Shown in pieces: positions 6,218 to 62,814 of a stretch of 64,000 nucleotides of DNA. The translations under genes and the position numbers were made by a program. The stretch spans positions 930,001 through 994,000 of the forward strand of contig JACKQL020000012.1 of assembly GCA_018296165.2 (NCBI GenBank). The letters are read 5' to 3'. The notes under the pieces are model-generated. The model saw only the letters and a program-made list of their open reading frames with translations, was not told where the DNA came from and searched no databases. Numbering within the stretch: the stretch's first letter is position 1; every line of letters begins with the position of its first letter. The stretch comes from Termitomyces sp. T153 (Eukaryota; Basidiomycota; Agaricomycetes; Agaricales; Lyophyllaceae).

Positions 6218-6812
6218 ACTAGGAGTTCGTATTATGCTCTGAAATGTAGCATCGGGTTGCAAATACTTGGGGAAATTCAGTATAGGACCACCAGTGCTCT
6301 CCGAAGAAATATAATTTATGCTGTGGATGGCACAAGCCATATACAGTCGTGACGGCGGGAAGCTTGAATAAAATTATACCTGCGTCCTTACTGCGTAATA
6401 GGGCGCCTTGATTTTATGAACGTACTTGTCTTCATACACCTCGATATTGTACACGTGGAATAAGTAATGTAGTGTTTCTTGATATGATAACTTCAAATTG
6501 TCAATATACGAGAAAAGTTTTCATTTGTTGCGGCGAACGTTGTATGTATAAGTCCTGCGGGAGACCGCGCAACAATTAGTTAAAGTATCTGTCTAACTTG
6601 GGTGTGTTACTCTTCTGTCAACAGCTGGGGGTATTGAATTATATATGACATAAATACTAGTAAGTGATTGACAAGGTACGAACTGAGCACAATTTCTACA
6701 TGTAAAGGGAGGAACATTTGCAAAAATGAAAGCGAAATCCAAACATTGGAGAGTTCAATAGCGAAGCGGTGACGACAGACAGAGTCACAGGGAAATCAAT
6801 GTAAATTTGATG
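6218..6812. other. Convergent intergenic region; 3' flank of module A1
   Basis: No gene is seen between the convergent ends of the Arb1-like gene and A1. The part from about 6812 down to about 6490 is still recognisably similar, in inverted orientation, to the sequence after the A2 stop (62290 to about 62610). The duplicated module therefore includes roughly 300 bp of 3' flank. Shared stretches include tcaaattt just past the stop and a ccccagc...acagaa...acacacc(c/t)aagttagac run. Confidence 0.5.
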
Positions 6813-9800
6813 TTAGTAGTCCCGTCGGCGCTCGCGTATAGATTCCTCGATTGTTTTATGACGTCTAATGGCTTCTCTTAAAGCTGACAATCGATCTGCT
6901 TTCTTCAAACCTTTCGGATGCGGAGTTGAATATGTGACTGGGCCACTGCATCGATGTCGAATGGCTTCCAATTGTCGGTGCAAGAGCAACTGGTAGGCCA
7001 AATCTTTCGATTTGAGCTTCTTCAAGTTCAGCTCAGATTCGCCTTTCAGTCGTGGAACAATGTCAGCCTTTTGAAGGCCAGGAATACTCACACCCCAGTC
7101 ATTAGACAATTCCTCTTCTTCCTTCAATCGAGACTGCTGTATCGCTTTCTTCCAGGCAAAATGGAGTCCACGTTCGATCGGCCCTCCGAGTTTTGATAGA
7201 TTGTGGACCGGAATGATGCAGATGTCGTGGGGATCCTTCGGATCGTAATTGGGATCGTTGTGAAGTGTTATGGCGACATCCTTGATTCTTTCGCAGGTTG
7301 TACTGTAACATTCGGCCGGAAAGACAAAAAGTCCACGAAGAACACTGTTGTATCGAGCTTCTTGTTGATTGAATCGTTGAGGAAAGTGGCGAAGTGCATA
7401 AATAGTGCGTTCTAAAAGATTATTGGGACCTTTGACATTTCCATTCGACTGCATTTGGCATTGAGCCATAGATAGGATGAATAGTAGAAAGAGATTCTCG
7501 TACATCTGTCCAGAAATACTGTGGAGTAACGGTACGGATCGCTTGCTTGATATCCGCTTCTGCTGAGAAATCCAGGGACCTGGCTCTATGCTTGATTTGT
7601 AATGCTACAGTGATGATCGCTCCCGTGTGTTCAAGCTGCAGACGGAACATTATACCCGGACCAAATTGCTCCATAGGAAATAAAAATGGCGCCTTATGCC
7701 ATCCAGCAAGCCATTGGAGGTTCCCCTCATATTCCTGATAATCCCCCTTACCTTTTGACGCTTTATATCCAAGCAAATGGCTGGGTGAACTTGGCCCCAA
7801 CTCCAAGCGTCCAGAATATTGGGAAAACTTGGTCTCGATGGGATATCGAGAAGGCGCAACTCTGAAGGCCCTAGAAGAATCATGCCAACATGACACTAAT
7901 CGAGCTCTTTGTCCTGCTAAGCCTCGGTCGATTCCTGTGTCGGCAAAATCAAAAATGCGCGAGAGCTGAGTGAAATTTCGGAAAGCCTCGGCAAGGATCA
8001 GTGCTGTATAACGCTCCACCACATTTCCAACAGGGCTATGCTTTCCTAATTGTTCAAAAAAGTAATTGTATCGCTTTTTGCTTAGATCCTCTTGTGAATT
8101 GAGCCAGATATCTGCTGCAAGATATGCCAATGGCTCATCCAACAGAGGCATTCCATCCTCTATCTTAGACCCTGGGAATCGAGCGAAGCCACATTCTACT
8201 AAGTCGTAGTTGGTCACTTTTATGGTTGCTGAAAAGTCCAAGTTTCCAGTCATAAGTCGCTCGTAAGTCATACTCTGTACGCTGTCCATGAGGGCATATT
8301 TTATTCTCGAGACTATAGAACATGGAATTATTCAGTTTGCTGAGTTAAGATCTCAACCTAACTGACCTCGTTCATAGTCAAAGGGACACAGCCGAGGAAG
8401 ATTCATTGTGATGATGGGCTCTTGCTCCTCCCAATACTCTCCGTCCAATGGAACAAAGTTACTAATGGCTTGAACGCAATGCGAAAGAAGTCGATGAAAA
8501 CTTTGAAAATTATTTTGAATAGTCAATTGAACATAAGCTGAAATGAAGCGCGGCCTGATGTGAGAGGGACTTGATAAGGACCGTATATGGATTTTGTATA
8601 TCAATGCACTTACCGTCCCCAAAACCAATAACGTGCACGTTCGATTAGTTCAACCCCGCTGGGCGTCACTAAATAGGATCCAGGAAGATATTTAGCTAGG
8701 AAGATTTGGATCGTTTGATGATCCGCCCATGACCCGGTACTCGTTACTCCATCATTGATATCCGCTTGCTTTCCGACGGTCGAGTCCAGGGCGTCCACAA
8801 GAAGTTTACGATTGATTGATGTGCCGGTGATTATAGTTCTGAGTCTGTACTTCTCAAGCCATGGTCGTATCATGGCGCGTAGCACCGGGCGGTTCATACA
8901 CCCTGTGTCAGCATCACGAAAAGCTTGGGGCCATGCCCCTACAGCAGCTTGAGCTTCATCGACAACGCAGTACAGAAGGGCTTTGGGGTCTAGCTCCAGG
9001 ACTGCCTGGCTGCAGGCCATTAGTAGACGGCCGCCGATTTCTGCAAGCTCTAGAGCATCTACTATGGTGCATAAAACACAGGTGAGCTCTTGTAATAGGT
9101 CCAGGCTATCTTGGTCGTCTCCGAGAAGACGCGTGTCGAGTTGGACAAAGAGCCAAGATTTCATGAGAGTTTTGAGCCACTCTTTCCTGAGATGTAGAGG
9201 CTGATTGCTCAAGCTTTCTCGGCGCCTAGCAGTCATGAGGAAGCAAGAGAAGACCAGTAGGCGAGCAACCATGACAGCGTGAAAGCATCGTGTTGCAATT
9301 CTGTCATTCTTCCGGAGCTTTCCAGAAAGTTCATTGACTTCTGGGCAATCGTTTAGGATAAATATGTCATCAGGGAGGGTTGGGAGGTGACTCTGGAGTC
9401 CTTGTTTAGCCATACACCCCGATTCGGAAATGACAGTCATAATGTCGGACGATCCGATCTCGTCCATTCTTCTTTTACAGGTAAAGTAAAATCCCCACTC
9501 CGAGCATAAACCTTCGAGTACTAGCCGTGTTTTTCCAGAACCAGATGTATTTAGAAAAACCCTGATGTAAAATCATCAGATCAATCGTTATAATCTAGGT
9601 TTTGAAAGCCTACGAGTGTAAATTCACGTCTTTGGGACCAAGAAAAATAGATTGAATCCTTTCTTCACGATCTGGCCACTTTTCCATTTCAGCGCTTTTA
9701 TGTCGGTTCAATGGCGTTCCTTGATCTTTACCGAGTTCGTGAAGAAGTAGACATGGTTTGCCATGCAGAATCGGAATGTTGAGAGCGTTGCAGTGATCGA

Positions 9801-10098
9801 GGAGCACATTATCTGCAATATTGGGTATCCACGGATCGATTATTGCGATTTCGTTATTGAAAATTCTTTCAAGACGGCCAATAGCGTGTTTCACGAGGTC
9901 GTCAAACTGACTGGCACGCCGCATAGGGTCAGTCTCAACGATGCTCAAGCACATTGACGATGTCTTAGGGGCTGATAGATACAAATATGAGACAATTCAC
10001 GCAAAATGAAGGATTGACTGACCAGAACTAGTGATTGTGTTGTACAGATTATTCCTCTCTTCATAAAAGACGTCTTCTAATGGTCTTCTAGTGCGCAT
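6813..10098 (-). CDS. A1: Crinkler-like P-loop NTPase/REase-fold protein, catalytic Asp lost
   Basis: Exons in order of translation are 10098-10023, 9971-9614, 9561-8614, 8554-8367, 8312-7504 and 7448-6813, giving about 1004 aa. It has an N-terminal domain, a Walker A motif (NTSGSGKTR), a Walker B motif (LLYCVVDEAQAA), a sensor-like ITGTSI, and TPSGVELIER followed by an Arg-containing GRPRF. The C-terminal region has a PD-(D/E)XK-like layout: an ERYTALILAEAF helix, GP-x-IMFRLQL, and TVALQIKHR. This is the domain order of CR (Crinkler-RHS-type) NTPase-nuclease proteins. In the GPD position the Asp is replaced by Gly (GGT here, GAT in A2), which should abolish nuclease activity. The start is uncertain: the two upstream ATGs available to A2 are not usable here, leaving 10098 as the first in-frame ATG. 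It lies head-to-head with B1. Confidence 0.72.
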
Positions 10099-10826
10099 GT
10101 TCAGATTGAGAAGGCAAAGTGTTATGAAGTTCTGGAGTAGAAATTTCTGGCGAGCAAACGTTATCCATCGCCCAGAATATGAAGTACTTTGATCATCTAC
10201 ACCCACAGTTGATACTGATCCACAAGTCTGCTTGGAGAGCTTGTTCTTTAACAATGGCAAGGCAGGATAAGACACTACAAATGACGGCTGTCGTTTAGAA
10301 CAAAAAGGTCCGCATACACTTGTTATTGTGTACGCCTACAGATACAGAGATTATTTTGCCCATGACACCTCCGTTCTTTTCCACACTGCAACTTATCACG
10401 GAGGAACAGCTGATGGCAAGAAACGAGAACAAATGTAGTGTAAGTAAGCGCATCCCGCCGGCTCCTGCATGTATGTATTACTTATCTGGATGCGCTCTGT
10501 AGAAATACAGTACTATGTAGATATATAAGTCTACCTACAATGTTCTAGATCAAAAGTTTGATTTCATTGCACAGATGAATGCTTACAGTTGGCAAAGATA
10601 GAAGGCGTCAGAGGTAATAAGGAAGGCAAATTGACAGGTATAGAGTGGATTGTGAACTCAAAATGCCTCGTGAGGGGTGAAAACACGTCGTGGGGACGGC
10701 GGTGTCACAGGAACCTTCATCACGCTTGTCGGAGTTCGGACACGGGACTGCGTTTGTTTCTTCAACCCTCAGCATCGCCACAAATCTACTCGTCCTCTGA
10801 GAACGCCTCCAGCATTCAAGCTTCTT
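10099..10826. promoter_or_regulatory. Divergent promoter region between A1 and B1
   Basis: About 730 bp separate the proposed starts of A1 and B1. The part next to A1 is recognisably similar to the region upstream of A2; shared phrases include atgatcaaagta and gggcgatgg. The divergent control region was therefore duplicated along with the genes. Relative to B2, the upstream ATG of B1 has become ACG at about 10803, leaving 10827 as the first aligned ATG. I see no clear TATA box. Confidence 0.5.
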
Positions 10827-13800
10827 ATGTCGGCAGAACAAGATCTAGACTCATTGTCAGAGCCCACATCATACGACGATGCGGCGCGACTTCTCTCGCT
10901 TTTATGTCCCGACTTCATCAAGAACAATGTCGAATACGGTCTCAGCTCTCCGGAGTCATTTGCTTGTTTGTTGTATCGAAATGAATCACTTTTCGAAGAG
11001 GCCAAAGACTCATTCGTCGCGAAAGATTTTCATGGCTTTTGAAGTCGTTGTGTCCAGATTCGTAAGTTATATTTATATCTTATAAGCATTCCATGATCCT
11101 GCATAAACTACATTTAGATTCAACGAAATCTCTGAGACGATCCAACTACACCGATACAGCTAATGATCTACAAAGTATATCATCAAATCTGACAAACTTG
11201 GCGAACCAAAGGATTGATACGCCACTTTGGACAATCTCTGATGTTGCTGCTGAGGATACACACACAATCGTGAAGAGCTTTACTTTGCGTTCTCTCATGA
11301 ATGAAAAAACGATGCCTTCCATGCTTTTTTATGATTCAGGTAGCTTCAGGAATGATTCTATCCTCGATGAACGTGTTCAAACGCTTTTTATCAAGGACCA
11401 AAATATGTTTGTGATCGTCTATTCTTGCTGGAGCACATGTTGAATTTTAAAAATAGATTTCTCGTCAACGCTTCGGCAACCGGAAAGACACGTCTGTTGT
11501 ACGAGGGGCTCTATCGGCATTGGGGTATATACATCACAGCTCGTGCGGACGATCAAGAGGCTCGGGCACTCGAGACAGCGATGGGCAGTTACTTTGGTGA
11601 CGAAAAAGGGCTGGTATCATTTCTTCCAGACGCATCTGCACTAGGTTACCGTGAACTCCTGCATGATAACTTAGGAATTCTCAATCGACGGTTTTCCATC
11701 GTGCTTCTCGTCCACTTGCTCGTATTTAGAGAGTTCCTCAAGACAGCACGTGCTGAGAGCGTCATAGACAATAAAAATCTTCGTCGACTTTGGCTTCTTG
11801 CTCAATTGTGGCAACCGTGTCTTGGTGGATGGAATAACGATGTTCACAGACAACTTCTCGAATCGCTTGAGTGGAATCCATTGACGATGATCAACAATGA
11901 ACTCACCAAAGTCTTGAAAGAGATCAATCCCCTTCTACCCGAGGTCATACGGAAGGAGGGGCTATTTGTCGCTATTGACGAAGCCAATGTAGCAGCTAAG
12001 TCATTATGGCGCGATACTGCCAAAAAATATCCTTTCATAAAAAGTATCATACGTGTATGGAGAGATCAGCTCGCTTCACTGGAGTGTCCCGTAACATTCG
12101 TGGTCGCAGGCACGGAAATATCTCCTGAAGCTTTTCCATCATGGTCGCCTGAATGGTCCTCCTGGAAGTGGACTTCTGACACAGGGTCATTTGATGATCG
12201 TGAAGTTCAAAGAAACTATATTCTACCCTTTTTGCCTCCATCTCTTCCACAAACACCTTCTGGTGTAGCACTATTTAAGCGAATATGGAAGTGGTGCAGG
12301 CCAAGGTCAAGTTCTTTCTAACCCTGCACTCGTGTTGTATTTATGTATCTCACTACTAGACACCGCCTAACAACTGTCATCATACGGATGTTGGTTGAAG
12401 ATAAGGGAGTCCATCCGCATGGCGTGCTCAATCGTTATATTAAGGGCCTCATGTCGTACGAGGCAACTGATGCAGCTGAATACATTACCAATGAAGGTCC
12501 ATGCAATATAGTACCATTTTTCTATGAGATCGGCACAATTATTGAAAGTGGGTCTTCACTGCATTTTCAACGGTTTTCCGAAGCTGATGACATCTACCAG
12601 AACACTTCCTTGCTCGATCTGCCACGCATGAGGTGGTCTTCCACTATATTATCACAGGGAATCACCCTCCTTTTTACGATATCAGTAGACTGGCGCTAGT
12701 CACTTCGGGTGTCGGACAATTCAAGGACAAAGACATGCAAGTGATAGCAATGGACCAGCCTGGACCAACGATCGCTGCTGCTATCTGGCTTGGCAACGAT
12801 CAGGAGCGAACTGAATACCAGGATCCGGATAGGTTTCGATCCTTGAGGCTATTCAAGCCATTTTCCTTCTTTTTTAACTTGGCTTGGCCCAACGGCGACA
12901 ACTACTCGTCCGCAAGTTATATTACCTGGTATCTTGCTCACGCATTTGTAGGCGGCCGGGTTATGTCTGATGTATTTGCTATCTCGGACCTTTTGTGGTT
13001 AGAAGATATATCGAGAATGGCGCACCTTGTTGTCTTGCGTAAGGATAAGGGCGTTGTTCAAGAACTGTTTGTCGGACCATCTGAACTCCTCCCAACTTCT
13101 CCTCCTCTAGGGTATAGAGCATCGACTGTTGACGACGTCATTGCATGGTTTAAGCAAGATCGAGTCGGTGCATTCTGTTTGTGTCCTCCAGACTGCTGGG
13201 CAGACCTAATATTCGTCCTGTACCTACAAGGAAAGTATGTGTGGGTTGTGCTTCGCGCTGCTGGACAGGGTATACAACTAGACACGAAAGATTTATATAT
13301 TGAATTTGAACGTCTTACAGAAGAAAATTTGTTCTCTCGTGCGGTCTGTCATTTCATCTTTCCATCCCACCTTATTCTCAAATTCTTTGGGTGCAGATAA
13401 ATACATCCGATATAACTGCACATCAAAATGATTTCTCAGAGGTTCTCAAATTGCTTCCAAACACCCTCGCACCTCATGGGTCATTCCCCATCTTACGCGT
13501 CTTGGCTACTTTCCCTAACGAGCCTTTATTGCCCCGTCGCAATCCAATGCGGAAAATCCCAGGAGGACCGGTGTCCGTTCTGAAACTCGATACCTTCAAG
13601 AGCGTCACCGAAGCCTTTTCACCCAAGGACCTTGTCGAAGGACTCATATCTAGTATGCATGGCAATAGATCTTCTTACTCCGACGATTCATTTGCTCCAA
13701 TCAATCTCGTCTCGAGCTCACCAACGAGTAAACAGGAGGAAGACACGAAAGCAGCAGGGCAGCCCACGACGGGAAGCTCGTCTCATACGAAAACGGCGTT

Positions 13801-14029
13801 GAGGGTTGATAGACCCATACGTCCCATTCCTCGCCACAAGACACCACCTCCAAAGCTTCCAGCAGAGCCACGGCTTCTAGCTAGTCAGATCGCCAAAGAA
13901 GTGGCACCAGCACGCGAGTCCAAACGTGCACGGAGACAAGCTACAGACAAATCGCTGGAATCGTCATCCGCACCTCTTCCTCACCGGACTCGAAGGGAGC
14001 ACCACTCAAAAGGCACCGCTGGCAAATAG
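10827..14029 (+). pseudogene. B1: paralogous P-loop NTPase/degenerate-REase protein, interrupted by TGA
   Basis: Exons are 10827-11061, 11118-11406, 11457-12305, 12360-12547, 12601-13343 and 13397-14029. Exons 3, 4 and 5 have exactly the lengths of those in B2 (849, 188, 743 nt). Walker A is NASATGKTR and Walker B is LFVAIDEANVAA; a sensor-like VVAGTEI and TPSGVALFKR follow. The REase-like region contains WADLIFVL and then VVLRAAG, so the usual Q-x-K is R-x-A. The C-terminus (about the last 110 residues) is basic and low in complexity. In exon 1, TGA at 11040-11042 stands where B2 has TGG (Trp), only 19 nt before the donor site. No alternative donor upstream avoids it. All other exons are open, so this is a recent pseudogene or a translated N-terminally truncated product. 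Confidence 0.7.
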
Positions 14030-14261
14030 CACAATGATTCAGACAACGTTGATTTTTACCCATGTCTTCATTGTGTGATAGGGTTATTTTCATGATAATC
14101 TCTTTTTCTATGTTACATGGATCTATATATATGTTTCAATTGTACAATCTAACGTGGAAGAGAAATGGAAGAGGCAAATTTGAAACTGGAAAGATTTATT
14201 TGAGAGACCCTTATTATTGCATTTGTAGTTGTTATATTTACACGTCCTCTGTTCAACCACC

Positions 14262-15631
14262 ATGTCGAAACGCGGTCCTTCCCCGCCACCCGCTGAGGGC
14301 GTCCTCATCAAGAGAGCTAGGTCAGATGGACCTCCCTCGAACCAGATTGTGATATCCTCCTCGAATGACCCGAGAAACAGGGGCCTTATTCGCTCAGTTC
14401 AAAGGACGAGTAGTCTCGAAGCGCCGATAGTTAGTCTTGCCGGGGCTCATTCTGTACGTGTTGGAAATATCATAACAATATATTGTGGACTCAAACAGTT
14501 GCACAGGCTGAGATTTTAAGCTGCAGGTTTGATCCAACTGGTCAAAATATCGCTGCCTGTTCAGCAGATCGAAGTGTCTGTGAGTCCAGTCAATGAAACA
14601 GTCGAATATACGCGTTCTCACATCCCTAAAGCTCTCTGGCGGACATATCCTCCAAATACTAATTATGGACTGCTTTCTAACCTCACAAAAGCCCCCATTC
14701 TCGACCTACAATGGTCCTTATCCTCGTCAATTCTCTACACCGTTTCTGCCGACCATCTTCTTACCACTGTTGATCTCACGACGGGTCAGCGGGTACGAAA
14801 GATACGGGCACACCATGAAATTATCAATACAATTGATCGGACAATGGCTGCAGGAACAGAACTTCTTGCAACAGGGTCAGATGATGGCACGGTAAAAATT
14901 TGGGAAGGAGGCGAGGAGGCAACGAAGCAGGCTGTAGCGACGTTGGAAGTCAAGTGCCCTGTCACATCGGTGTGCTGGAGTGCGGACGGTGCGAACGTGT
15001 ATGTCGGCGCACTGGACAATGAAATTCACGTACGTACCATCATTCAAATTTCATATTTCGCATTCTGATACGCTGGATCAGGTATTTGACATACGTAAAA
15101 ACGAACAAGTATACTCACTCAAGGGGCATACCGATACCCCAACTTCGCTATCACTCTCACCGAACGGCTCCTACCTCCTCTCCCCTTCTCTTTCGTCCCA
15201 AACTATTATCCATGATATCCGTCCTTTCTCGCCATCACCAACTCGGATATACCGTATTCTTCAGGGCGCACCTGCTGGCTTTGAGAATACGCTTCTGAGA
15301 GGGGCATGGAGTAAAGACGACGGCGGACGGCGCGTGGCTGTTGGAGGTGCCGATAGGACGGTGACAATATGGGAGGTGGAGAGTGGTAAGATCTTATACA
15401 AGGTCGGTTTCGCTTTGTTTCATGTTCAAGTCTCTTAATGTTTTTTGGTCATAGCTTCCTGGTCATAAAGGCACAGTCACAGCCGTTGATTTTCACCCGA
15501 AGGAACCTATCAGTACGCTGATACACTTCTCCCATTCTTCTCTTTCCTTACGCCTCTTCTGTGCAGTCCTTACTGGTAGCAAGGATGGAACCATGCTATT
15601 GGGTGAAATAGAAGCTGGGATCGCGATATAA
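14262..15631 (+). CDS. SNRNP40: U5 snRNP-specific WD40 protein (SNRNP40/Spf38-like)
   Basis: Exons are 14262-14453, 14507-14579, 14632-15029, 15082-15402, 15455-15512 and 15567-15631, giving 368 aa, close to the human protein. After a short basic N-terminus (RGPSPPPAEGVLIKRAR) the SLEAPIVSLAGAH block opens a seven-blade WD40 propeller. Diagnostic stretches are LATGSDDGTVKIWE, HVFDIRKNEQVYSLKGH, GSYLLSPSL...HDIRPFSP, FENTLLRGAWS, VAVGGADRTVTIWEVESGKILYKLPGH and the terminal GSKDGTMLLGEIE. These follow the order in vertebrate SNRNP40. The protein is a structural component of the U5 snRNP and tri-snRNP in the nucleus. Human SNRNP40 has LKGHT-type repeats where this protein has slightly degenerate ones. 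Gene order has no functional meaning here; it starts 232 bp after B1. Confidence 0.93.
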
Positions 15632-15904
15632 CTGGGTCCTGTGTTCTGACCTTTTCTTGATACATTAATCTGCTATTGTGAACAAGAGTATCCCCCTTGA
15701 AAGACTGAGGAAAATTTGCAACATCCAGTGTTCATGCAGATTTATTTAACGCGAGGAATTTTCTAAGGTATACAGTGCGATGTATGGTAGATGGATGATT
15801 GGGATGGAGGGCGCGATGGTTATGACTAGGAGTGAGAAGAGAGATGCAGCAAAGCAATGCGTACAGTAGAGAAGAAAAAACGGCAACTCGAGCAGACGAG
15901 CAGC

Positions 15905-18612
<2,708 letters not shown>

Positions 18613-18988
18613 GATGTTAGTAGTGATGGGTAATGGTTACGAGAAAGCAAACGGTCCAAGGATGATGGATAATGGACGCGTTGAAACACCGCCGCCCTGT
18701 TTCTACTTGATAGGGCACGTGAACGGCCGGCCCGCCAGACGGCGCATGAATTTTCGAAATTCAAATGCTGCAAAAGCTATTTACGAGAAGGTTATCAAGC
18801 ATGTTCCAGCTACTGAGGCATTCGATAGACCTATTTTGCCTGCGGAATGGTGTCTCTTCGTATTATGTCCACGCCATGTCGTAACAACTTGTCAGGGATC
18901 TTACGTTCAATGCCTCCATGAGGCTTATATCAAGTATCTAGCGCCGGGTACTTTAGAACCTCCACTTCGAATTGTGCCTTCGTAAACC
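18613..18988. promoter_or_regulatory. Divergent promoter region of cullin-1 and the MYND-finger gene
   Basis: These 376 bp separate two outward-reading start codons and must carry both promoters and 5' UTRs. An open + strand frame covers most of it, but it has no recognisable family and I treat it as fortuitous. There is no clear TATA box. Confidence 0.4.
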
Positions 18989-21900: not shown

Positions 21901-22701
21901 CCATCTGGGGGCGCTCCACCAGCAGGACGGAGAGATTTGATCCAAGACATCTCACGTACGATTAGAGATATATTCATTTCCGCTGGAAAATACGGAAACC
22001 CGCGTCAAGCAATCATTATGCGTGATCCCAAAGGTAACGGCGTTCCTGGAGAAATTCTGATTTTCCTCAATTGTGTACGGCTTGACCTCCCTTCGCACAC
22101 GATTATTGCCGATGCATGTGCTGTCTCCTTGGATTTATTGTCGGACCTTAGCTCGAAAACGTTCTCAAAATGTTTACATAAGACGCAAAACGGTATGGTG
22201 GAGATCCAGATGTCATCTCGTGAAATCCGAGCCTGGTGGCAACTCCTTCCCATCCTGGCTGAGCGATGCAGAACCTGGTCTCATGCCAACAATTGCAAAT
22301 TCCGTAGTGCTGGCATGTCGAATAATGACCCAGACCTGAACATCAGTCCTCTTTGTCAATGTGGTCGCGGAAAATCTCTCCCTCCATCGTTCTTGAAAGG
22401 CGAGTACAAGAATTTAGCGCCTTTCGCGACTCGAGTAGCGTTCGGGCCACTCTTTCCCGTGACTTGTCTAGAATCGGTTGCGAACAACTTGCTAACTCGG
22501 CTGGACGCGATCATGAGGGGTGAATCGAAGGCTTCTGAGGTCTGTGATTTGTGCGGAAAAGCAGGCCAGCCCCGCTTGATGCGATGCAGCGCATGTGGGC
22601 GGGCGAAGTACTGCTCCAAAGAATGCCAGAAGGAGGATTGGAAGATTCATCGGGTTGGATGCAAAACGTCCAACAAGGCTCAGATCCATAGTTCCAAGTA
22701 G
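18989..22701 (+). CDS. DUF4470/MYND zinc-finger protein with an in-frame TAA
   Basis: Exons are 18989-19265, 19326-21643 and 21700-22701, 1199 codons in all. The N-terminus (FYPIGNTPPASF...AAILLLGCGDPRSILYTV...LDFTCCDAEPAILARN) is the DUF4470-type block of the large agaricomycete MYND family. The C-terminus is a complete MYND finger (CDLCGKAG...CSACGRAKYCSKECQKEDWKIHRVGCK) with all the expected Cys/His ligands. The middle is helical and of unknown function. At 20702-20704 a TAA interrupts the frame between LALVK and RVNSDWTHVMDY. The frame resumes identically afterwards, and no plausible intron removes the stop. It is either a recent nonsense mutation, a sequencing error or a truncated product of about 560 aa. 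Family function is unknown; MYND fingers usually bind proline-rich partners. Its 3' end is duplicated at 33754-34238. Confidence 0.75.
20702..20704 (+). other. Premature TAA in the MYND-finger gene
   Basis: The codon lies inside a conserved segment: the residues on both sides read as continuous family sequence in the same frame. The surrounding bases offer no GT-AG intron of normal size that would skip it. Confidence 0.7.
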
Positions 22702-23097
22702 TCTACCGGAAGTCTTACGACGTGTTTTACGTGTTTCAATACGCGTATGTATTCACCAAGTACATTTTTACATTGCTTGCTACTATTACAAAAATTGTAC
22801 ATCCATGATCTTGATTTTTTCTGCAAAATTTTTTCATACTTCTCATCGAACCAAGTTGATAGGGTATCCAAATTCTTCGAGACCAACTTCGAAATCCTCT
22901 TCGATGCTCCGCGCACTGACGAAGGGGTAGAAAATGGCAATGCTACCGGCCTTGTCATTCGTGCCACTTGCATGGGCACCACCAAGGGGTTGCTGACTAC
23001 CGACTGTGCGCACTTTTCGTTATAGTTACCAGTTGAATTGCGAAGATGGTTGGTGGCAGTAAGGAGTGCCTTGCGTTCGGAGGCGAAAGCCATTTTA
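22209..23097. repeat. Left copy of the ~0.9 kb MYND/P5CDH junction duplication
   Basis: The block begins at gatgtcatctcgtgaaat and ends at gccatttta. It is a diverged direct repeat of 33754-34635. It contains the 3' end of the MYND gene (here intact and in frame) and the 3' end of a P5C dehydrogenase gene (here broken). Matching sequence stops abruptly at both edges. Confidence 0.85.
22845..23097 (-). pseudogene. P5C dehydrogenase 3'-end fragment
   Basis: Read on the minus strand, this matches the last exon of the intact P5CDH at 34366-34615 ([14 protein letters not shown]...LRNS, then fragments equivalent to [11 protein letters not shown] and FYRF). It carries several small indels that break the frame. 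In addition, 11 bp are missing between two short ttcgcc repeats at the 5' edge, which removes the splice acceptor present in the intact gene. No other P5CDH exon lies upstream on this strand, so the copy is a dead 3' fragment. Confidence 0.85.
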
Positions 23098-26800: not shown

Positions 26801-26860
26801 AAAGGGGTTAGATGAATGTAATTTTATGTCTCCTGTTGCATAGGTTAAATTTTTAAGTGC

Positions 26861-31818: not shown

Positions 31819-31870
31819 AACTAACTCTGGAGTCTTGAATACGTTCCAGTGAGGATGGAAAGCCGTCTAC

Positions 31871-33753: not shown

Positions 33754-36572
<2,819 letters not shown>

Positions 36573-39131: not shown

Positions 39132-39295
39132 GAGAGCACAAGATAAGACAAAATTGATCGAGATGGCGCACATTTATATAATAGCGGCACAAAGGCATCC
39201 GAGCACGCTAAGATACGGAGCTATTGCCCCGATCACCCAGCAATCCCGTTATGTGATACGTAATGCTGTGGCGCGCAAACACAAACAAACACAAC

Positions 39296-48654: not shown

Positions 48655-49031
48655 ATGTCCTACGTATCCGACGATGAAATTGTCGTACGTATATCCTCTG
48701 CTGTCCTGACGGACAACCCGCTGAGTGCTAGTGCTAGCCCGGCGACATCGTCGCTGTTCGCCATGGACTGAAAGGCAGACAAGAAGGTCTTGTCATCGGC
48801 GCACACGTCGACTACATGGTACGTACGCCCCTCCGTCTGCACATTGTGTACCTCAAACACTCATTCTCCCTCAAGGGCCGACAAGTCATCGAAGTACAGC
48901 TGGACAGCACTGAGGTGTACCAGGTCTACCACCCATACGTCACGCGGCTCAGGAGGACAATCTCGTACTCACGCCCCAGCCTCTCTGCGCCCCACAAAGT
49001 CCGAACCGTCGAACGTCGCGTGCTCTGGTGA
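48655..49031 (+). CDS. Small hypothetical protein with a KOW-like segment
   Basis: Three exons, 48655-48684, 48738-48818 and 48876-49031, join in frame to give 88 aa: MSYVSDDEIV, then PGDIVAVRHGLKGRQEGLVIGAHVDYM, then GRQVIEVQLDSTEVYQVYHPYVTRLRR.... The middle resembles a KOW/SH3-like turn (GD-x-V-x-VR-x-G-x-x-GR-x-G-x-VIG). All four splice sites are GT-AG and the two introns are 53 and 57 bp, like its neighbours. A promoter-proximal exon of only 10 codons is unusual but acceptable. I do not recognise a named family. The alternative is that the middle exon belongs to a different gene model. Confidence 0.5.
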
Positions 49032-49541
49032 TCCAGCAGGCAGGCCCTTCTCAAATTCCCCCCGCCTCGGACCTCCTCGGACTCGGACTTGGGGGACAAA
49101 CATCATTATTCTTGCATCTACACTCGATTATCTGACATTTGTGTATATTCATTATTTTTCAACGATATCCCTGTTGGCTTGGGGTCGGTGCTGGGAGAAG
49201 GGGACGGGATGGAATGTGATGTGATGAAGGAAAATTCAGCCTATAGTCGGAGGAACCACTTTTCTTCTTGAGTACTAAATACTGAGCACTGATGACGTAT
49301 AGATGTGCCTCCTATCTACGTACATACCTAACCATGCGGGGTCATATATATGTATCACTCCTATATGACTCGTTCTCGAGGAAAAGAAAAAAAACAACCA
49401 AGAATGCATGATGAGAAAAACGTCTCTGGGTGTGGTGTGCAAGAAAGAATAAACACTACAGGTCAAATATGGTTATAAAAATGATAAAAGGACATGATGA
49501 ATTGAATGAACCAAGATTAGCTAGTGATACACGAGTTTCTT
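49032..49541. other. Convergent intergenic region
   Basis: 510 bp between the ends of the small KOW-like gene and the ubiquitin protease. It is likely 3' UTRs only; no coding signal or RNA gene is visible. Confidence 0.45.
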
Positions 49542-52027: not shown

Positions 52028-52115
52028 GTGGGTGGTGGCGAGAACAAAAGATGGAATTCGCAGAGTACAAGGCCAGGCGTGCGGGCAAGTAAAACACAAC
52101 TTACTACATGAGCAT

Positions 52116-52199
52116 GGCTACCTGGCGCAATGGTAGCGCGTTTGGCTTCGATTGCTAAGCGGCACCAAAAGGTTGCAGGTTCGAGTCCTGCGGTGGTCA
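52116..52199 (+). tRNA. tRNA-Arg(TCG) with a 12-nt intron
   Basis: The acceptor stem is GGCTACC/GGTGGTC, the D arm is GCGC-AATGGTA-GCGC, and the anticodon stem is TTTGG/CCAAA. The T arm is GCAGG-TTCGAGT-CCTGC and the discriminator is A. The anticodon loop reads CT-TCG-A, followed by a 12-nt intron (ttgctaagcggc) and then A, so the mature loop is CTTCGAA with anticodon TCG. It lies only about 90 bp upstream of the USP start on the other strand and 117 bp before the Cdc7 start. Confidence 0.9.
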
Positions 52200-52315
52200 T
52201 AAAATGATCGTCGATTTCTTTTATAGTTACTTTTTTACTCATAATTTATTCACGTGACTTAGTTTTGCGACGCGTCAAACTCCAGCCCAAGTTGGTTCTT
52301 CGCGATCGTCGCAGA

Positions 52316-54698: not shown

Positions 54699-54833
54699 AT
54701 TAGATTTTTGTATTATTATTATAAGTCGTTGTAATTGCTATAATAAAGTATTGCTGCAGAGGAGTTAGAAGTGGGTAACTTGGGGCAAATCGGTTGGTTT
54801 GCAGAGCAAAAAATGTGGGGGCTTAACCAATAA

Positions 54834-54917
54834 TGACCACCGCAGGACTCGAACCTGCAACCTTTTGGTGCCGCTTAGCAATCGAAGCCAAACGCGCTAC
54901 CATTGCGCCAGGTAGTC
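54834..54917 (-). tRNA. tRNA-Arg(TCG), second copy
   Basis: On the minus strand this is almost identical to 52116-52199, with the same 12-nt intron. The acceptor 5' strand is GACTACC, which pairs better with GGTGGTC. It is inverted relative to the first copy, and the two bracket the Cdc7 gene. It ends about 170 bp before the conserved edge of module 2. Confidence 0.9.
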
Positions 54918-55182
54918 ATACATACTTGCGCCTAACGATACCTCTCCAGAACAAAGAAACTGAGGATTTTTTATTGCCAAAGCTGTTCGATTTTACAAAC
55001 ATCTCTCTTAACCTGTATATAACATGTTCTCGACAATATGTAGTTTTTTGCGAGGATGATACATACATACTGTTCCGCCAGAGAAATTGGTACATACATA
55101 TAGATACATGAAACATGAAAACGTGTCACACAACATGATAAAGACACGGGTATAAAAGATCAACGTCCGGATGATGGTGGTG

Positions 55183-58100
55183 CTATTTGCCAGTGGTGCC
55201 TCTCGAGTTATGCTCCCTTCGACTCCGGTGAGGAAGAGGTGTAGACAATGATTCCAGCGATCTGTGGCTGTCTCTCGCTTCCCTCCGCACACGTTTGGCT
55301 TCGCGTGTTGGTGCTACTTCCTCGGCAATCTGACCAGAGAGAGACCGATGCTCTGTCGGAAGTTTCGGAGATGGTATCTTGTGGCGAGGAATGGGACGTA
55401 TGGGTCTATCAGCCCTCAGCGCCGTTTTCGTATGAGACGAGTTGCCCGTCGTGGGCTGTCCTGCTGCTTCCGTGTCTTCCTCCTGTTTACTCGTTGGTGA
55501 GCTCGAGACGAGATTGATTGGAGCAAATGAATCGTCGGAGTAAGAAGATCTATTGCTATGCATACTAGATATGAGTCCTTCGACAAGGTCCTCGGGTGAA
55601 AATGCTTCAGTGACGCTCTTGAAGGTATCAAGTTTCAGAACAGACACTGGTCCTCCTGGAATTTTCCGAGTTGGATTGCGACGAGGCAATAAAGGCTCAT
55701 TAGGGAAAGTAGCCAAGACGCGTAAGATGGGGAATGATCCATGAGGCGCGAGGGTGTTTGGAAGTGACTTGAGGGCCTCTGAGAAATCATTTTGATGTAT
55801 AGTTATATCCGATGTATTTATCTGCACCCAAAGAATTTGAGAATAAGCTGGGATGGAACGATGAAATGACACACCGCACGAGAGAACAGATTTTCTTCTG
55901 TAAGACGCTCGAATTCAAGATATAAATCTTTCGTTTCTAGTTGTATGCCCTGTCCAGCAGCGCGAAGCACAACCCACACATACTTTCCTTGTAGATACAG
56001 GACAAAGATCAAGTCTGCCCAGCAGTCCGGAGGACATAGACAGAATGCGCCAACTCGTTCTTGCTTGAACCATGCAATGACGTCGTCAACAGTTGACGCT
56101 CTATAACCTAGAGGAGCGGAAGTGGGGAGGAGTTCCGATGGTCCAACAAATAGCTCCTGGATAACATCCTTATCCTTACGCAAGACAACAAGGTGCGCAA
56201 TCCTTGATTTATCTTCCAGCCACAAAGGGTCCGAAATAGCGAATACGTCAGACATAGCTCGACCGCCTACAAATGCGTGAGCAATATACCAGGCAATATA
56301 ACTTGCAGACGAGTATTTGTCGCCATCGGGCCAAGACAAGTTGAAAAAGTAGGAAAACGGTTCGAACAGCCTCAAAGATCGAAGCTCATCCGGACGTTGG
56401 TATCTGATCCGCTCCCGGTCGTCCCCAAGCCAGATAGCAGCGGCGATTGTTGGTCCAGGCTGGTCCATGGCTATCACTTGCATGTCTTTGTCTTGAAATT
56501 GTCCAACACCCGAAGTGACTAGCGCCAATCTACTGATATCATAGAAAGGGGGGTGCATCCCTGTGATAATATAGTGGAATACCACTTCATGCGTAGCAGA
56601 CCGAGCAAGAAAATTACCTGAAAAACGTCATCAGATTTCGGGAAGGCAGTACAGTCAAGACTCACCTTGAATGATCGTACCGATACCATCGAAAAACGGC
56701 GATATATTGCATGGCCCTTCCTTGGCAACGAGTTCAGCTGCATCAGTTGCATCGTACGACATGAGACGCTTGATATAACGGTCAAGTACGCCATGCGGAT
56801 GGAGTCCTTTATCTTCTACCAGCATCCGTATGATGACTGTTGTCAGACGGTGTCTAAAAGTAATTTACATGAATGATACAACATGAGTATGAAGGCAGAA
56901 AGAACTTGACCTTGGCCTGCACCATTTCCATATTCGTTTCAGTAATGCTACACCAGAGGGTGTCTGCGGAAGAGACGGAGGCAGAAAGGGTAGAATGTAG
57001 TTCTTTTGCATTTCACGGTCATCAAACGATCCCGTGTCAGAAGTCCACTTCCAAGAGGACCATTCAGGCGACGACGACGGAAAAGCTTCAGGAGATATTT
57101 CAGTGCCTGCGACCACGAATGTTACGGGGCACTCCAGTGAAGCAAGCTGATCCCTCCATACACGTATGATACTTTTGATGAAAGGGTATTCTCTGGCGGT
57201 ATCGTACCATAATGACTGAGCTGCTACATTCGCTTCGTCAATAGCAACAAAAAGCCCTTCCTTTCGTATGGTATCTGGCAGCAGAAAATTGATCTCTTTC
57301 AAAACTTTGGTGAGTTCATCGTTGATCATCGTCAATGAGTTCCACTCAAGCGATTTGAGAAGTCGTACGTGAACATCGTCATTCCATCCACCAAGGAATG
57401 GTCGCCACAATTGAGCAAGGAGCCAAAGTTGTCGAAGGTTTTCATTGTTTATGACGCTCTCGGCACGTGCTGTCTTGAGGAACTCTCTAAATACGAGTAA
57501 ATGAACGAGAAGCACAATAGAGAACCGTCGAACGAGAAATTCTAGATTGTCATGCAGGAGTTCCTGGTAGCCTAGCGCAGACGTGTCTGGAAGGAACTCT
57601 ACCATTCCATCTTCACCACCAAAACTATTGTCCATCGCTGCCTCGAGGGCCCCAGCCTCTCGATGATCCGCGTGAGCTGTGATATAGATTCCCCAATGTC
57701 GGAAAAGCCCCTCGTACAACAAGCGGGTCTTTCCCGCTGCCGAAGCGTTGACGAGAAATCTGTTTAAAAAAGGTCAACCATGAGGCCCTCTAAAGATAAA
57801 CAATTACAAACGTATTCCGATCCTTGCTGAAAAGCTTCTGAACACGTTCATCGAGGATAGGATTACTCTTGAAACTGCCTAAATCATAGAAAAGCATGGA
57901 GGGCATCCATTTCTCGTCCATCAAAGAACGCAAAGTAAAACTCTTCACAATTCCGTGTGTGTCTTCAACAGCAACATCAGAAATTGTCCAAAGTGGGGTC
58001 TCGATCCTCCCGTTCACCAAGTGTGTGAGACTTGATGACATAGCGGCCAGAACAGCCGAAGTATTAATGTAGCCTTTCATAGGTTTAGCTGAACCTGAAA

Positions 58101-58406
58101 AAAGTACCATGTAGAACATGAAATTACGAGATACAAATGTGACGCACAAATCTGCACACAACGATCCCAAAAGCCATGGAAATTCCTCACGGCGAATGAA
58201 ACCTTTACCTCTTCAAAAAGTGATTCATTCCGATACAACAAACAAGCAAATGACTCCGGAGAGTCGAGTCCGTACTCGACTTTGTTCCTGATAAAGTCGG
58301 GACATAAGAGCGAGAGAAGTCGCGCCGCATCGTCGTATGATGTAGGCTCCGACAAGGAGTCTAGGATTTGTTCTGCCGACATAAGGAGCTCGGATGCTGA
58401 AGACAT
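55183..58406 (-). CDS. B2: paralogous P-loop NTPase with degenerate REase domain, intact
   Basis: Exons in order are 58406-58148, 58094-57812, 57759-56911, 56853-56666, 56617-55875 and 55821-55183, giving 986 aa. The N-terminal region (about 1-165) has no known domain. Walker A is NASAAGKTR (Lys about 191), Walker B is LFVAIDEANVAA (Asp about 355), then VVAGTEI and TPSGVALLKR...CRPRHR, a likely arginine-containing sensor. The C-terminal REase-like region contains WADLIFVLYL with an Asp (about 728). It has VVLRAAG where active enzymes have Q-x-K: Arg about 745, Ala about 747. The last 120 residues are basic and disordered (KRVRRE..., SRREH), possibly a nuclear localisation signal. The frame is open throughout. 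The same substitutions occur in B1, so catalytic loss predates the duplication. Confidence 0.75.
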
Positions 58407-58899
58407 TTGTTTATACAAAGGACGTGGTTCATGTGGCAACGTTGATTAGTTCTGGAGTTCTGGAGTTCTGGACTCCGACGTGCCCTTACATAACCAACAT
58501 CATGTCCGATTTAGGCCCTTTTCTTCGGGTAGGCGCCTCCCTGTCTGCTCTCCATAACACCCGCTTCACTCAGCTCTCGGCAACGCGCATTCCTGCACGC
58601 TTTTCCAGTCACCTCCGGAATAGTTTATGTTGGTTGTGTTGAAGACCACTAGTCTCAGTTCGGAGTTCAACAAACACACGTGACACTGGCATATACTATT
58701 ATGGTGCATCAGAACAGAAAACAATTGTGGATCCGTATCAATTGTGGGCGTATGTGATCTAACAAGTACCATACATAGGCTTGCCATCCTAGATGATGGT
58801 TCCATTCGTTGTTATGGCAGCATCAAGCCATTATTCTGGATTGTCATTGTTAAAAACAAGCTATGCAAATATGCATGTGGATCGAGTCTGTGGGCGTAA
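58407..58899. promoter_or_regulatory. Divergent promoter region between B2 and A2
   Basis: About 490 bp separate the B2 and A2 start codons. The A-proximal part resembles the region upstream of A1 in inverted orientation. A short direct repeat of ctggagtt units lies at about 58450-58475. No clear TATA box is seen, and shared regulation of the pair is inferred from geometry only. Confidence 0.5.
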
Positions 58900-61800
58900 A
58901 TGATCAAAGTATTTCATGTCGTGGGCGATGGCAACGTTCGTTCACCAGAGATCTCCCCATACCTTGTAACACCTTCAAATCGCCCGCAATTCATGTTTAA
59001 TCAATCCGACGTGTTCAGTGACCAACCATTGGAAGATGTCTTTCGTGAAGTGAGGAGCAGCCTGTACACTGTAATTGCTCAGTCTAGTCAGTCAACCTTT
59101 CATTCGAGTAAAGTGTCTCTGACATGTGCATTCCTATTAGCCCCTGACACATCGTCAATGTGCTTGGATAATATCAAAACTGCTCCTACTCAGCGGGCCT
59201 ACCAGTTTGAGTTCCTCGTTAACCATGCTATTGGCCGCCTTGAGAGTATCTTCAACAAAGAAATCCCAGTTATCGAGCCGTGGATACCTAATATCGTAAA
59301 CAATGTGCTCCTTGATCACTACAACACTCTCAAGATTCCGGCTTTGCATGGTAAACCATGTCTACTTCTCCACGAACTTGGTGATGATCAAGGAACCCCA
59401 TTGAACCGACATAAAAGCGCTGAAATGGAAAAGTGGCCAGATCGTGAAGAAAGGATTCAGTCCATTTTTCTTGGTCCCAACGACACAAAGTTTCACTCGT
59501 AGGCTTTCAATTCCTGGATTTATAATGATTCAGCTGACATTTTTACATCAGAATTTTTCTCAACACGTCTGGTTCTGGCAAAACACGGCTAGTACTCGAA
59601 GGTTTATGTTCGGAATGGGGATTTTACTTTACTTGCGCAAGAAAGTCAGACGAGATTGGTTCCTCCGATATTATGACTGTGATCTCCGACGAAGGGTGTA
59701 TGGCCTCGCAAGGACTCAAGCATGACCTCAAGACTCTACCTAAAGAAACAACCATCCTGCATGATTGTCCAGAGGCTAAAGAACTTTCCAGAGAGCTCCG
59801 CCACAACGTTGCGATTGCAAAACGATGCTTTCATGCTGTCATGGTTGCCCGCCTGCTGGTCTTCTCTTACTTCCTTATGACTGTTAGGCGCCGGAGGAAC
59901 GTAAGCAGCCAACCTCTAGATTCTGGTTGTCTCCAGACTCTCAGGAAAACTTGGCTCTTTATCCAACTTGACACGCGTCTTCTCAGATACAGCAAAAATG
60001 ATGACCTGTTGGAAGAGCTTACACGTCTTTTATGCACCATAAAAAATGGTCAGGAGCTCTCGCAATGTGGCTGGCGTCTATTAGATGCCTGCGAACGAGC
60101 ACTCCTCGAGCTAGACCCTAAATCCCTTTTATACTGCGTTGTTGATGAAGCCCAAGCTGCCGTGGAGGCATGGCCCAGAGCTTTTCGTGATTATCCGGGT
60201 ACAGGATGTCTTGACCGTCCAGCATTGCGTGCTATGATATATTCATGGCTTAGACGCTACAAACTCAGGACTATAGTCACTGGTACATCAATAAATCGTC
60301 GGCTCATGATGGATGCTCTGGGTTCAACCATCGGAAAGCAGCAGGATATTAATGACGGAGTAACCAGCACCGGGTCATGGGCAGATCATCAAACAATCGG
60401 AAACTTTCTAAACAAGTACCTTCCCAAATCTTATTTAACAACACCTAGTGGAGTTGAACTGATTGAACGTGCGCGTTATTGGCTCTGGGGACGGTAAGTC
60501 CATTCGTACATAAAATCTATATATGGTTCTCACTAGCTCCCTTTCACGTTAGGCCGCGCTTCATTTCAGCTTACGTCCAATTGGTTATTGAAAATGGTTT
60601 TCAGAGCTATCATCGACTTCTTTCGCGGTGCATTCAAGCCATCAGTGATTTTGTTCCATTGGATGGAGAGTATTGGGAGGAGCAAGAGCCTATTATCACA
60701 ATGAATCTTCCCCGATTGTGCCCCTTTGACTATGAACGAGGTCAGCTAGTTAAAATCTCAATTTGGCAAGCGGATTGATTCCTTGGGACTTTATAGTCTC
60801 GACAATTAAATATGCCCTCATGGACAGCGTGCAGAGTATGACATACGAGCGGCTTATGAGCGGAAACCTGGATTTCTCAGCAACTATCAAGGTGACTAAC
60901 TACGGTTTAGTAGAGTGTGGTTTTGCTCGATTTCCAGGGTCTAAGATAGAGGATGGAAAGCCTCTTTTAGACGAGCCATTGGCATATCTTGCAGCAGATA
61001 TCTGGCTCAATTCACAAGAGGACTTGTGTAAAAAGCGATACGATTACTTTTCTGAACAAATAGGAAGGCACAGCCCGGTCGGAAACGGGTTGGAGCGTTA
61101 TACAGCACTGATCCTTGCCGAAGCTTTCCGAGACTTCACGCAACTCTCGCACATTTTTGATTTTGCCGACACAGGAATTGACCGAGGCTTAGCAGGACAA
61201 AGAGCTCGATTAGTGTCATGTTGGCATGATTCCTCCGGGTATTTCAGGGTTGCACCTTCTCAATATCCTATCGAGACCAAGTTCTCTGAATATTCCGGAT
61301 ACTTGGAGTTGGGGCCAAGTTCTCCCAGCCACTTACTTGGATATAAAGCACCCAAAGGTAAAGGGGATTATCGGGAGTATGAGGGGAACCTTCAATGGCT
61401 CGCAGGATGGCATAAGGCACCATTTTTATTTCCTATGGAACAACTTGGTCCGGATATAATGTTCCGTCTGCAACTCGAAAACACAGGAGAGATTATCACT
61501 GTAGCATTACAAGTCAAGCACAGAGCCACGTCTCTGGATTTCTCAGCAGAAACGGATATCAAGCAAGCTATCCGTACCGTTACCCCGCAGTATTTCTGGA
61601 TAGATGTACGTGAATTTCTTTTTGTTGTTAATCCTATCCATGCTCAATGTCAATTTCAGTCAAATGGAAATGCCAAAGGTCCCAATAACCTTTTGAAACG
61701 CACTGTTTATGCACTGCGCCACTTTCCTCGACGATTTAATCAACAAGAAGCTCGATATGATAGTGTTCTTCGTGGGCTTTTTGTCTTTCCGGCCCAACAT

Positions 61801-62289
61801 AACAGTACAACCTGCGAAAGAGTCAAGGATGTTGCAGTGACACTCTACCAGGATTCCAATCAACAACCGAAGGATCCTCACGATATCTGCGTTATTCCGA
61901 TTTACAAACTCTTGAAACTCGGAGGGCCGATTGAACGTGGACTTGAATTTGCCTTAAGGAAAGCAATACAGCAATCTCGACTGAAAGAAGAGGAGCAATT
62001 GTATGATGACTGGGGCGTGATCATTCCTGGCCTCCAGAAGGCTGACATTCTTCCACTACTGAAAAACGAGTCTGAACTAGAGAAGCTTAAATCGAAAGAT
62101 GTGACCTACCAGTTGCTCTTGCACCGACAATTGGAAACCATTAGGCATCGATGCAGTGGCCCAGTCGCATATTTGACTCCGCATCCGAAAGGTCTGAAGA
62201 AAGCAGATCGATTTTTAGCTTTAAGAGAAGCACTTGGACGTCATAAAAAAATTGAGGAATCTATACGTGAGCGCCGACGAGACTACTAA
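58900..62289 (+). CDS. A2: Crinkler-like P-loop NTPase/REase protein, active site complete
   Basis: Exons are 58900-59086, 59141-59498, 59552-60493, 60553-60740, 60797-61605 and 61660-62289, giving 1037 aa; an ATG about 90 bp downstream is an alternative start. The N-terminal domain contains IPALHGKPCLLLHELG and then EERIQSIFLG. Walker A is NTSGSGKTR (Lys about 192), Walker B LLYCVVDEAQAA (Asp about 380), sensor VTGTSI, and TPSGVELIER...GRPRF. The C-terminal PD-(D/E)XK-like domain has an ERYTALILAEAF helix, GPDIMFRLQL (Asp about 778) and TVALQVKHR (Gln about 797, Lys about 799). This order is that of CR (Crinkler-RHS-type) proteins, thought to descend from transposon NTPase-nucleases. Introns 1 and 5 are 54 bp without stops, so their retention would keep the frame. 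No signal peptide is seen. Confidence 0.78.
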
Positions 62290-62814
62290 CGCATCAAATT
62301 TGCACTTATTCCTTGCGACGCTGGTCATATCCTATTGGACTCTCAAATATAGCTTCATTTGGGCGCTTATATTCTTGTACTGCTAATGCAGATGCGCTCA
62401 GATCGCACCCTTGTCAATTACTTCATATTCTTGCTATCTAGAATTATATACCCCCCAGCCATTAACAGAATAGAACACACCTAAGTTAGACTGATAGTCC
62501 AACTGGTTGCACTGGCACAACTCCCGCGGGTTACAATAACGGTTACCAATGAATGCAAGTTTTTCTGGTACATTGAGAGTTAGAGCTTGTAAAACATTCG
62601 TTGTAATAAGAGCGAGCGTCGCCTTGTCTCTGTAGAGTTATCACTGAACGATCTCTGAGAGTACTCGCAGTTATTGAACAAAAGACTAAGGAGGTTCAAA
62701 GCTGGCGCATAACCCGCAAAGGGAGTTGGTGGTGCAGGGCAGAACCGTAGTAACTTGTCTCCGAACTAAATCATAAATAAAATAGTCAAAAAATATTACG
62801 CCGAAATTCAGATA
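62290..62814. other. 3' flank of module A2
   Basis: The first 300 bp match the flank of A1. The remainder, to the tRNA, has no gene. Confidence 0.45.

Follow-up and report, generated by a model that had tools for sequence, protein, structure and literature searches.

A duplicated divergent gene pair of Termitomyces encoding a Crinkler-related NTPase with a nuclease-like site and a paralog with a degenerate one

Crinkler-type proteins and the A/B genes

Crinkler-type proteins are known mostly as effectors of pathogens. XPF-ERCC1 and MUS81-EME1 each consist of an active nuclease partnered by a nuclease-dead paralog. Termitomyces is the mushroom farmed by termites, and the window analyzed here (64,000 nucleotides of Termitomyces sp. 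T153, contig JACKQL020000012.1) carries two copies of a pair of divergent genes, A and B (A1/B1 and B2/A2). The logic proposed below for A and B would be the same as in XPF-ERCC1 and MUS81-EME1, by analogy, but in different protein families.

CR proteins with NTPase, HTH, and REase domains (Zhang et al. 2016, as presented in PMC5289972) resemble A and B in having an NTPase followed by a putative REase-like domain; A and B differ from them in being without the Crinkler header and linked as a divergent, presumably active/dead pair. The phytopathogen members are effectors, and in prokaryotes the NTPase-REase relatives are, according to that review, associated with transposable elements (PMC5289972). 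Nothing in the A/B data favors an effector role, and no signal peptide is apparent by eye at the N-termini of A or B. Among the best literature matches listed, we found neither paired nor dead CR nucleases (Zhang et al. 2016 may discuss inactive members), and we found no literature joining Termitomyces, genome, and Crinkler.

With Pfam, the Crinkler header (PF20147) is absent from A2 and B2. It occurs on the same body in 15 of 103 matches (query included), and homologous bodies bearing it are found in Serendipita, Sanghuangporus, Amanita, Hebeloma, and Heterobasidion. The Serendipita protein P0026, which matches A2 at E=2.8e-51 and carries PF20147 at 5.2e-12, is the one header-bearing member of the 38 in the A alignment; there is none among the 38 of the B alignment. 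The kinship to CR NTPase-REase proteins proposed in a preliminary description of this DNA is supported, the bodies of A and B being homologous to those of header-bearing Crinkler relatives. The two genes are also, as described there, paralogous (BLASTP E=2e-27 over 578 aa; profile–profile E=2e-137 over 773 columns).

The two copies in the window

The gene models of A1, A2, B1, and B2 were built by hand from the sequence only, and all their introns are GT-AG. The features are the following:

6493..14141, no strand, first copy of the divergent unit, as far as homology to copy 2 is detectable
6813..10098, minus strand, A1 gene with 6 exons, coding for 1004 aa; NTPase + nuclease-type, Gly in place of the putative active-site Asp
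7654..7656, minus strand, A1 codon GGT (Gly), where P0002, the ortholog of A1, and A2 have Asp (GPD)
8367..8554, minus strand, A1 exon 4, 188 nt
10099..10826, no strand, A1-B1 intergenic region, 728 bp between start codons, presumed bidirectional promoter
10827..14029, plus strand, B1 gene with 6 exons; 978 codons, one of them a stop in frame (exon 1); NTPase + pseudo-nuclease
11040..11042, plus strand, B1 in-frame TGA in exon 1; Trp in B2
12360..12547, plus strand, B1 exon 4, 188 nt
55085..62584, no strand, second copy of the divergent unit, in the opposite orientation to copy 1
55183..58382, minus strand, B2 gene with 6 exons and an open frame of 978 aa; NTPase + pseudo-nuclease
56666..56853, minus strand, B2 exon 4, 188 nt
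58383..58992, no strand, B2-A2 intergenic region, 610 bp between start codons
58993..62289, plus strand, A2 gene with 6 exons and an open frame of 1006 aa; NTPase + nuclease-type, GPD...QVK
60553..60740, plus strand, A2 exon 4, 188 nt
61453..61455, plus strand, A2 codon GAT for the Asp of GPD, putatively catalytic

Copy 1, A1(−)/B1(+), and copy 2, B2(−)/A2(+), are one head-to-head pair in inverted orientation, with 82–84% nucleotide identity. In a self-BLAST of the window, 55141–58402 matches 14068–10807 at 84.4% and 59025–62323 matches 10084–6780 at 82.3%, both inverted and with E=0. This agrees with the preliminary description, as do the six exons and the 188-nt exon 4, seen in all four hand-built models. 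The "several hundred bp of flanks" that it assigned to the unit hold on the A side only: by local alignment, which gave the extents listed above, homology runs ~320 bp beyond the A stop and ~110 bp beyond the B stop, and the flanks score above simple base shuffles to ~300 bp and ~100 bp, respectively. Similarly, the two copies have only a portion of the divergent promoter in common. About 130 bp of the intergenic region are common to both copies at 76%, and the entire region of copy 1 against that of copy 2 scores 70 (shuffle maximum 19). No intergenic words of 9–12 bases common to both window copies plus the pair at locus L040 or L042 were found.

Pair 1 is damaged, with the in-frame stop in B1 and the change of Asp to Gly in A1, and pair 2 looks intact. 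The earlier reading overlooked both the TGA of B1 (11040–11042) and the Gly for Asp of A1 (7656–7654). Concordant damage within pairs was scored post hoc over 7 pairs and may reflect regional decay; the A1 side of the concordance in pair 1 rests on one residue, and the L040A model is short (702 aa).

NTPase and nuclease-like domains

The lysine of Walker A is kept in 83/83 scorable rows and the DE of Walker B in 87/87. The NTPase parts of A and B are predicted to adopt an AAA+/STAND-like fold, with moderate Z. In the models of both proteins, the top structural match to this part is the archaeal ATPase PABY2304 (2qen), which is a match without a nuclease domain and for which we know of no pair organization; 2fna (also archaeal), Avs3, NLR, CED-4, and TnsC, among others, come within 1 Z of it for at least one of the two models. 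With Foldseek at E≤0.001, 2qen is the one match to the A model and there is no match to the B model. Pfam gives no match to A2 or B2 up to E=10. Sequence profiles against the PDB give four weak RsbU matches for A (E 0.58–0.98) and none for B at E≤1. The earlier reading was to be refuted by the lack of a significant NTPase/REase match in a profile search, and for A2 and B2 in Pfam this lack is literally the case; the link passes instead via the Crinkler-headed relatives, the motifs, and, for the NTPase part, the moderate fold matches. The PADLOC/NCBIfam models gave weak scattered matches on the A alignment (best 0.0026, mads_8 model, 6 of 38 members), which were set aside.

In A and its solo relatives, the NTPase is followed by a PD-(D/E)XK-like E...D...QxK site that is kept. 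The order of the site in A, E(helix)-D(strand)-QxK(strand), fits the predicted secondary structure; the list of structural matches covered mainly the NTPase part. In B, the lysine of QxK occurs in none of 29 scorable rows, nor in any of 14 rows of the B-like outgroup, although Walker A and B are intact, and Q replaces E in 25 of the 29. Two A rows, P0012 and P0014, are also without the lysine and are perhaps poor models. Of the NTPase and REase fold ascribed earlier to both proteins, the Walker motifs are present in both and the nuclease residues are kept by A only. The nuclease-like domain of B has lost its catalytic residues, yet it is constrained as strongly as that of A (dN/dS 0.12 in each). 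With one partner that looks active and the other without cutting residues but with its ATP motor kept, a two-part molecular machine is suggested. That a catalytically dead gene under constraint lies head-to-head with an active-looking one leads to the prediction of a heteromeric complex, for which testable residues and genes are named above.

The same body with QxK is present in solo-type homologs of agarics (Termitomyces P0016, Coprinopsis CC1G_02623, and locus L046 on contig C40). In the 9.9-kb stretch examined at L046, no second A/B-type gene was found. The tree places P0016 and its kin in the A + solo half but not within the A clade; the Coprinopsis protein is absent from the tree.

Linkage, spread, and possible function

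Among the loci identified in this genome, 7 of 9 of the A type and 7 of 10 of the B type belong to a head-to-head pair, and the arrangement spans pair types only ~41–47% identical in protein. The divergent A/B arrangement is old. Most loci being paired, the view of a fixed divergent paralog pair copied as a unit, as opposed to homologs usually occurring alone, stands for this genome. Two B-type loci, L041 and a fragment on C7, have no A in the stretches examined; additional stretches near these two and near the L043/L044 cluster gave no A or B match. One cluster is ordered A(−) A(+) B(+). In Tephrocybe and Arthromyces, the locus tags suggest that A and B are linked as well. B-like proteins occur in Mycena, Hymenopellis, and Armillaria (proteins only). 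In Tricholoma, A (P0011) and B (P0050) belong to different types; the co-phylogeny of A and B was judged by eye.

An ancient inverted tandem duplication might have left A and B with jobs now unrelated, their linkage being maintained via segmental duplications. A single ancestral arrangement could account for all A/B pairs, and QxK-bearing A-like proteins are widespread in agarics beyond the A/B clades. We nevertheless hold such passive paralogs to be unlikely: the nuclease-like domain of B is constrained like that of A despite the lost catalytic lysine, and the linkage persists in two pair types and, via the locus tags, in two other genera. That the linkage could have been inherited passively from one inverted duplication is one point against a two-subunit reading.

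We lean toward A/B as a conserved module derived from agaricomycete CR NTPase-nucleases, in which an active nuclease and a degenerate partner probably form an intracellular two-subunit system. In this system, A would be an AAA+/STAND-like NTPase plus a PD-(D/E)XK-like nuclease with catalytic residues, and B a paralog of ancient origin whose NTPase looks functional and whose nuclease-like domain is catalytically degenerate yet strongly conserved. The two would be expressed together from the shared divergent promoter and assemble via their NTPase domains; B would control or target A, and A would cut nucleic acid, probably nuclear DNA. Such a system may serve in intracellular conflict, either in defense against invading or selfish DNA or in self/non-self control. 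If so, active/dead nuclease pairs evolved in fungi from CR proteins. More tentatively, one may see here a mushroom two-component nuclease, made of a Crinkler-type NTPase-nuclease and a dedicated pseudo-nuclease, that acts as an inducible intracellular DNA-cutting complex and whose divergent cassettes expand and die as units. The supposed purpose of the inducible complex is genome defense or self/non-self killing.

The two subunits could also be antagonists, as in poison-antidote or incompatibility systems, with B serving as a decoy, its nuclease dead, and keeping A inactive when the two assemble together. Loss of B, or a foreign A, would free the nuclease, and the linked pair would be selfish or self-marking. 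The tight divergent linkage, the dead paralog retained under constraint, and the expansion and decay of whole pairs would all fit. The core is, however, under purifying selection and not diversification, and in pair 1 A1 is damaged along with B1; we consider antagonism rather improbable.

In the two-subunit system, the pair would spread via ordinary segmental duplication and not by transposition. The preliminary description had entertained a module that is still mobile, and A/B copies do occur on four contigs (C12, C92, C54, and C13); the ties of CR-related NTPase-REase proteins to prokaryotic transposable elements, as given in the review (PMC5289972), point the same way. Against a transposon that has the pair as its cargo or as its own machinery, no terminal inverted repeats or target-site duplication are seen at the copy ends, which are eroded (dS between the window copies 0.45–0.55) and near which the longest shared words are 8 bases. 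No young copies were seen: for a 1.5-kb B segment, the best non-self match among the best candidates scored is B2 itself, at 86%. In Termitomyces sp. Mn162, the locus tags of the A1 and B2 orthologs are spaced as expected if the two copies are laid out there as they are here, and 9 of 10 neighboring ORFs scanned match ordinary cellular families. Present mobility is not supported, and a mobile element appears very improbable.

An 88-bp repeat lies outside both ends of copy 2 (54833–54920 and 62814–62901). It was rejected as a flanking direct repeat; it occurs a third time in the window as well as on C59 and, more weakly, on C26, which points to a small dispersed repeat.

Inverted copies of the A/B pair in the window

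The window (G000:C12:930001-994000 of a 72-Mb genome) contains the A/B pair twice, as A1(-)/B1(+) and B2(-)/A2(+). This inverted duplication, proposed in the preliminary description, was confirmed by self-comparison of the window, and in the alignment homology between the copies is traceable over 6493-14141 and 55085-62584. The six exons and the 188-nt exon 4 claimed for all four genes also hold in the hand-built models, where introns (GT-AG, 48-59 nt) were set from pairwise alignments of A1/A2 and B1/B2. A gene finder gave non-identical models, with four exons and 987 aa for A2, and with an N-terminus four residues longer for B2. In its crude models of paralogs, the exon-4 equivalent is 191 nt in L040A, 188 nt in L040B and 191 nt in L042A; exon 4 is not separate in L042B and L043A. 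The L044, L046 and second L043 models are incomplete, and L040A is short (702 aa).

Between copies, dN/dS is 0.22 (dS 0.55) for A1 and A2 and 0.20 (dS 0.45) for B1 and B2, with divergence patchy along the genes. In exon 6, B1 and B2 share an identical run of 86 bp (near 13700) in copies otherwise differing by ~16% overall, which may reflect gene conversion. As read in the assembly, exon 1 of B1 is interrupted by an in-frame TGA at a codon for Trp in B2, and A1 has Gly at the GPD Asp position (Asp in A2 and in P0002, the A1 ortholog from Termitomyces sp. Mn162). In pair 2, neither the stop in B nor the Asp-to-Gly change in A occurs.

The inter-copy genes lie outside the duplicated unit. In a scan of 10 window ORFs (9/10 with a match), the inter-copy ORFs match the WD40, cullin, MYND, BTB, cyclophilin-RRM and UCH families and, below its curated cut-off, a kinase family. 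Tail-to-tail with A1, the ORF at 4973-6214 (+) matches Arb1 (Argonaute siRNA chaperone subunit, PF09692, E=2.9e-7). A direct duplication of ~0.9 kb (85%) links 22209-23087, which overlaps a MYND-finger ORF, and 33754-34614. An 88-bp repeat (95-99% identical; only five matches found genome-wide) occurs at 52114-52201, 54833-54920 and 62814-62901, two of these flanking pair copy 2 in direct orientation.

Pairs elsewhere in the genome

Whole-genome searches with B2 and A2, followed by tblastn on the fetched loci, gave at least nine A-type loci (not counting the solo-type C40 gene) and at least 10 B-type loci, counting a short fragment on C7; these are lower bounds, since the genome search scores the best candidates only. 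At least seven are head-to-head A/B pairs, two of them in the window.

A/B loci outside the window
C92 (L009): head-to-head pair, degraded; 5' parts of A and B around the common promoter missing
C12:739-745k (L040): head-to-head pair
C12:1070-1076k (L042): head-to-head pair
C54 (L045): head-to-head pair, degraded
C13 (L048): head-to-head pair, fragments
G000:C12:634185-646229 (L043, L044): cluster A(-) A(+) B(+)

Within the stretches examined, neither the B piece at C12:764-768k (L041) nor that on C7 had an A gene beside it. In Termitomyces sp. Mi166, P0005 (1340 aa) has A then B within one model, and perhaps corresponds to the A(-) A(+) B(+) cluster.

Both genes look intact in 3/7 pairs (window pair 2, L040, L042) and both look damaged in 4/7 (window pair 1, C92, C54, C13). 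This concordance was scored post hoc and is weakest for A1, where it hangs on a single Gly, and for L040A, whose model is short. Such all-or-none damage fits a mutual dependence of A and B; regional decay could also damage both genes together.

Active sites and the proposed roles of A and B

The active-site alignment has 94 rows, 87 of them grouped (seven short or ambiguous rows were not counted). The QxK lysine is present in 14/16 scorable A rows (it is missing from P0012 and P0014) and in 23/23 solo rows (A-like relatives outside the A clade), and in none of 29 B or 14 B-outgroup rows. The Glu of DEPL is Gln in 25/29 B rows and retained in 14/14 B-outgroup rows; at the GPD Asp position, B has D in 18, E in nine and H in three of 30 scorable rows. 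Every scorable row retains the lysine of Walker A and the DE of Walker B. Among 86 further relatives of P0026, a Serendipita homolog, 64/76 scorable have QxK; 9/12 exceptions are from Mycena or Armillaria, B-like by eye and outside the tree.

The nuclease-like domain of B is homologous to that of A (profile-profile over 773 columns), and most of its blocks are modelled with pLDDT >70. Of B's four segments it is under the strongest constraint (dN/dS 0.117 vs. 0.118 in A). Constraint on a dead domain points to a structural, regulatory or DNA-binding function. On the best reading, A and B would be co-expressed and would build a mixed NTPase assembly, with cutting by A alone. The main rival is an antagonism where B restrains A, hard to tell apart from the mixed assembly by sequence.

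Descent, linkage and the Crinkler relation

A quick maximum-likelihood tree covering 84 proteins (SH-aLRT support only; a program warning concerned long branches in other parts of the tree) separates A plus solo (39 rows) from B (45 rows, among them Mycena, Favolaschia and Hymenopellis). The fused-looking P0005 and P0048 were left out beforehand, as were ten proteins that are short or ambiguous and the incomplete L043/L044/L046 models. Within Lyophyllaceae, A and B split alike, the window type with Tephrocybe and Arthromyces vs. L040 with L042, so an early duplication apparently affected the pair as a whole, beyond each gene singly. Tricholoma departs from this pattern, its A grouping with the L040/L042 type and its B with the window type, a mismatch that would count if the two are partners.

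By its homologs the window belongs in Termitomyces or close to it: A2 shares 88% identity with a protein of Termitomyces sp. T112, and B2 92% with proteins of Mn162 and T. 'cryptogamus'; the L042 B model and an Mn162 protein are at zero branch length. Linkage in other species is suggested by locus tags and contig sizes. On these, contigs are of equal size for A and B in Tephrocybe sp. (H0H87_003132 and H0H87_003131; 45,097) and Arthromyces (H0H93_010881 and H0H93_010879; 14,242). In Mn162, C0989_003070 (closest to B2) and C0989_003087 (closest to A1) are both on a contig of size 55,728, as expected if the two-copy layout is older than that split. Two Mycena genomes each have one homolog with QxK and one without it on contigs of equal size (P0033/P0145, P0027/P0141), so these may be linked.

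P0026 has the Crinkler header PF20147 and matches A2. PF20147 is found in 16/103 matches of the P0026 search, itself counted; one carrier, P0163, matches over a header-sized piece only. The component parts of the pair are already known as CR (Crinkler-type) NTPase-nucleases. A review (PMC5289972) gives the architecture according to Zhang et al., PMC11064341 gives it again, and PMC9815663 includes the Crinkler domain among fungal NLR N-termini. Among the literature matches listed, with Zhang et al. (2016) outside their scope, a conserved divergent active/dead CR pairing was not found. In Sanghuangporus, CR-type genes occur in apparent tandem arrays, judging from locus tags (e.g., ACEPAF_2526-2528).
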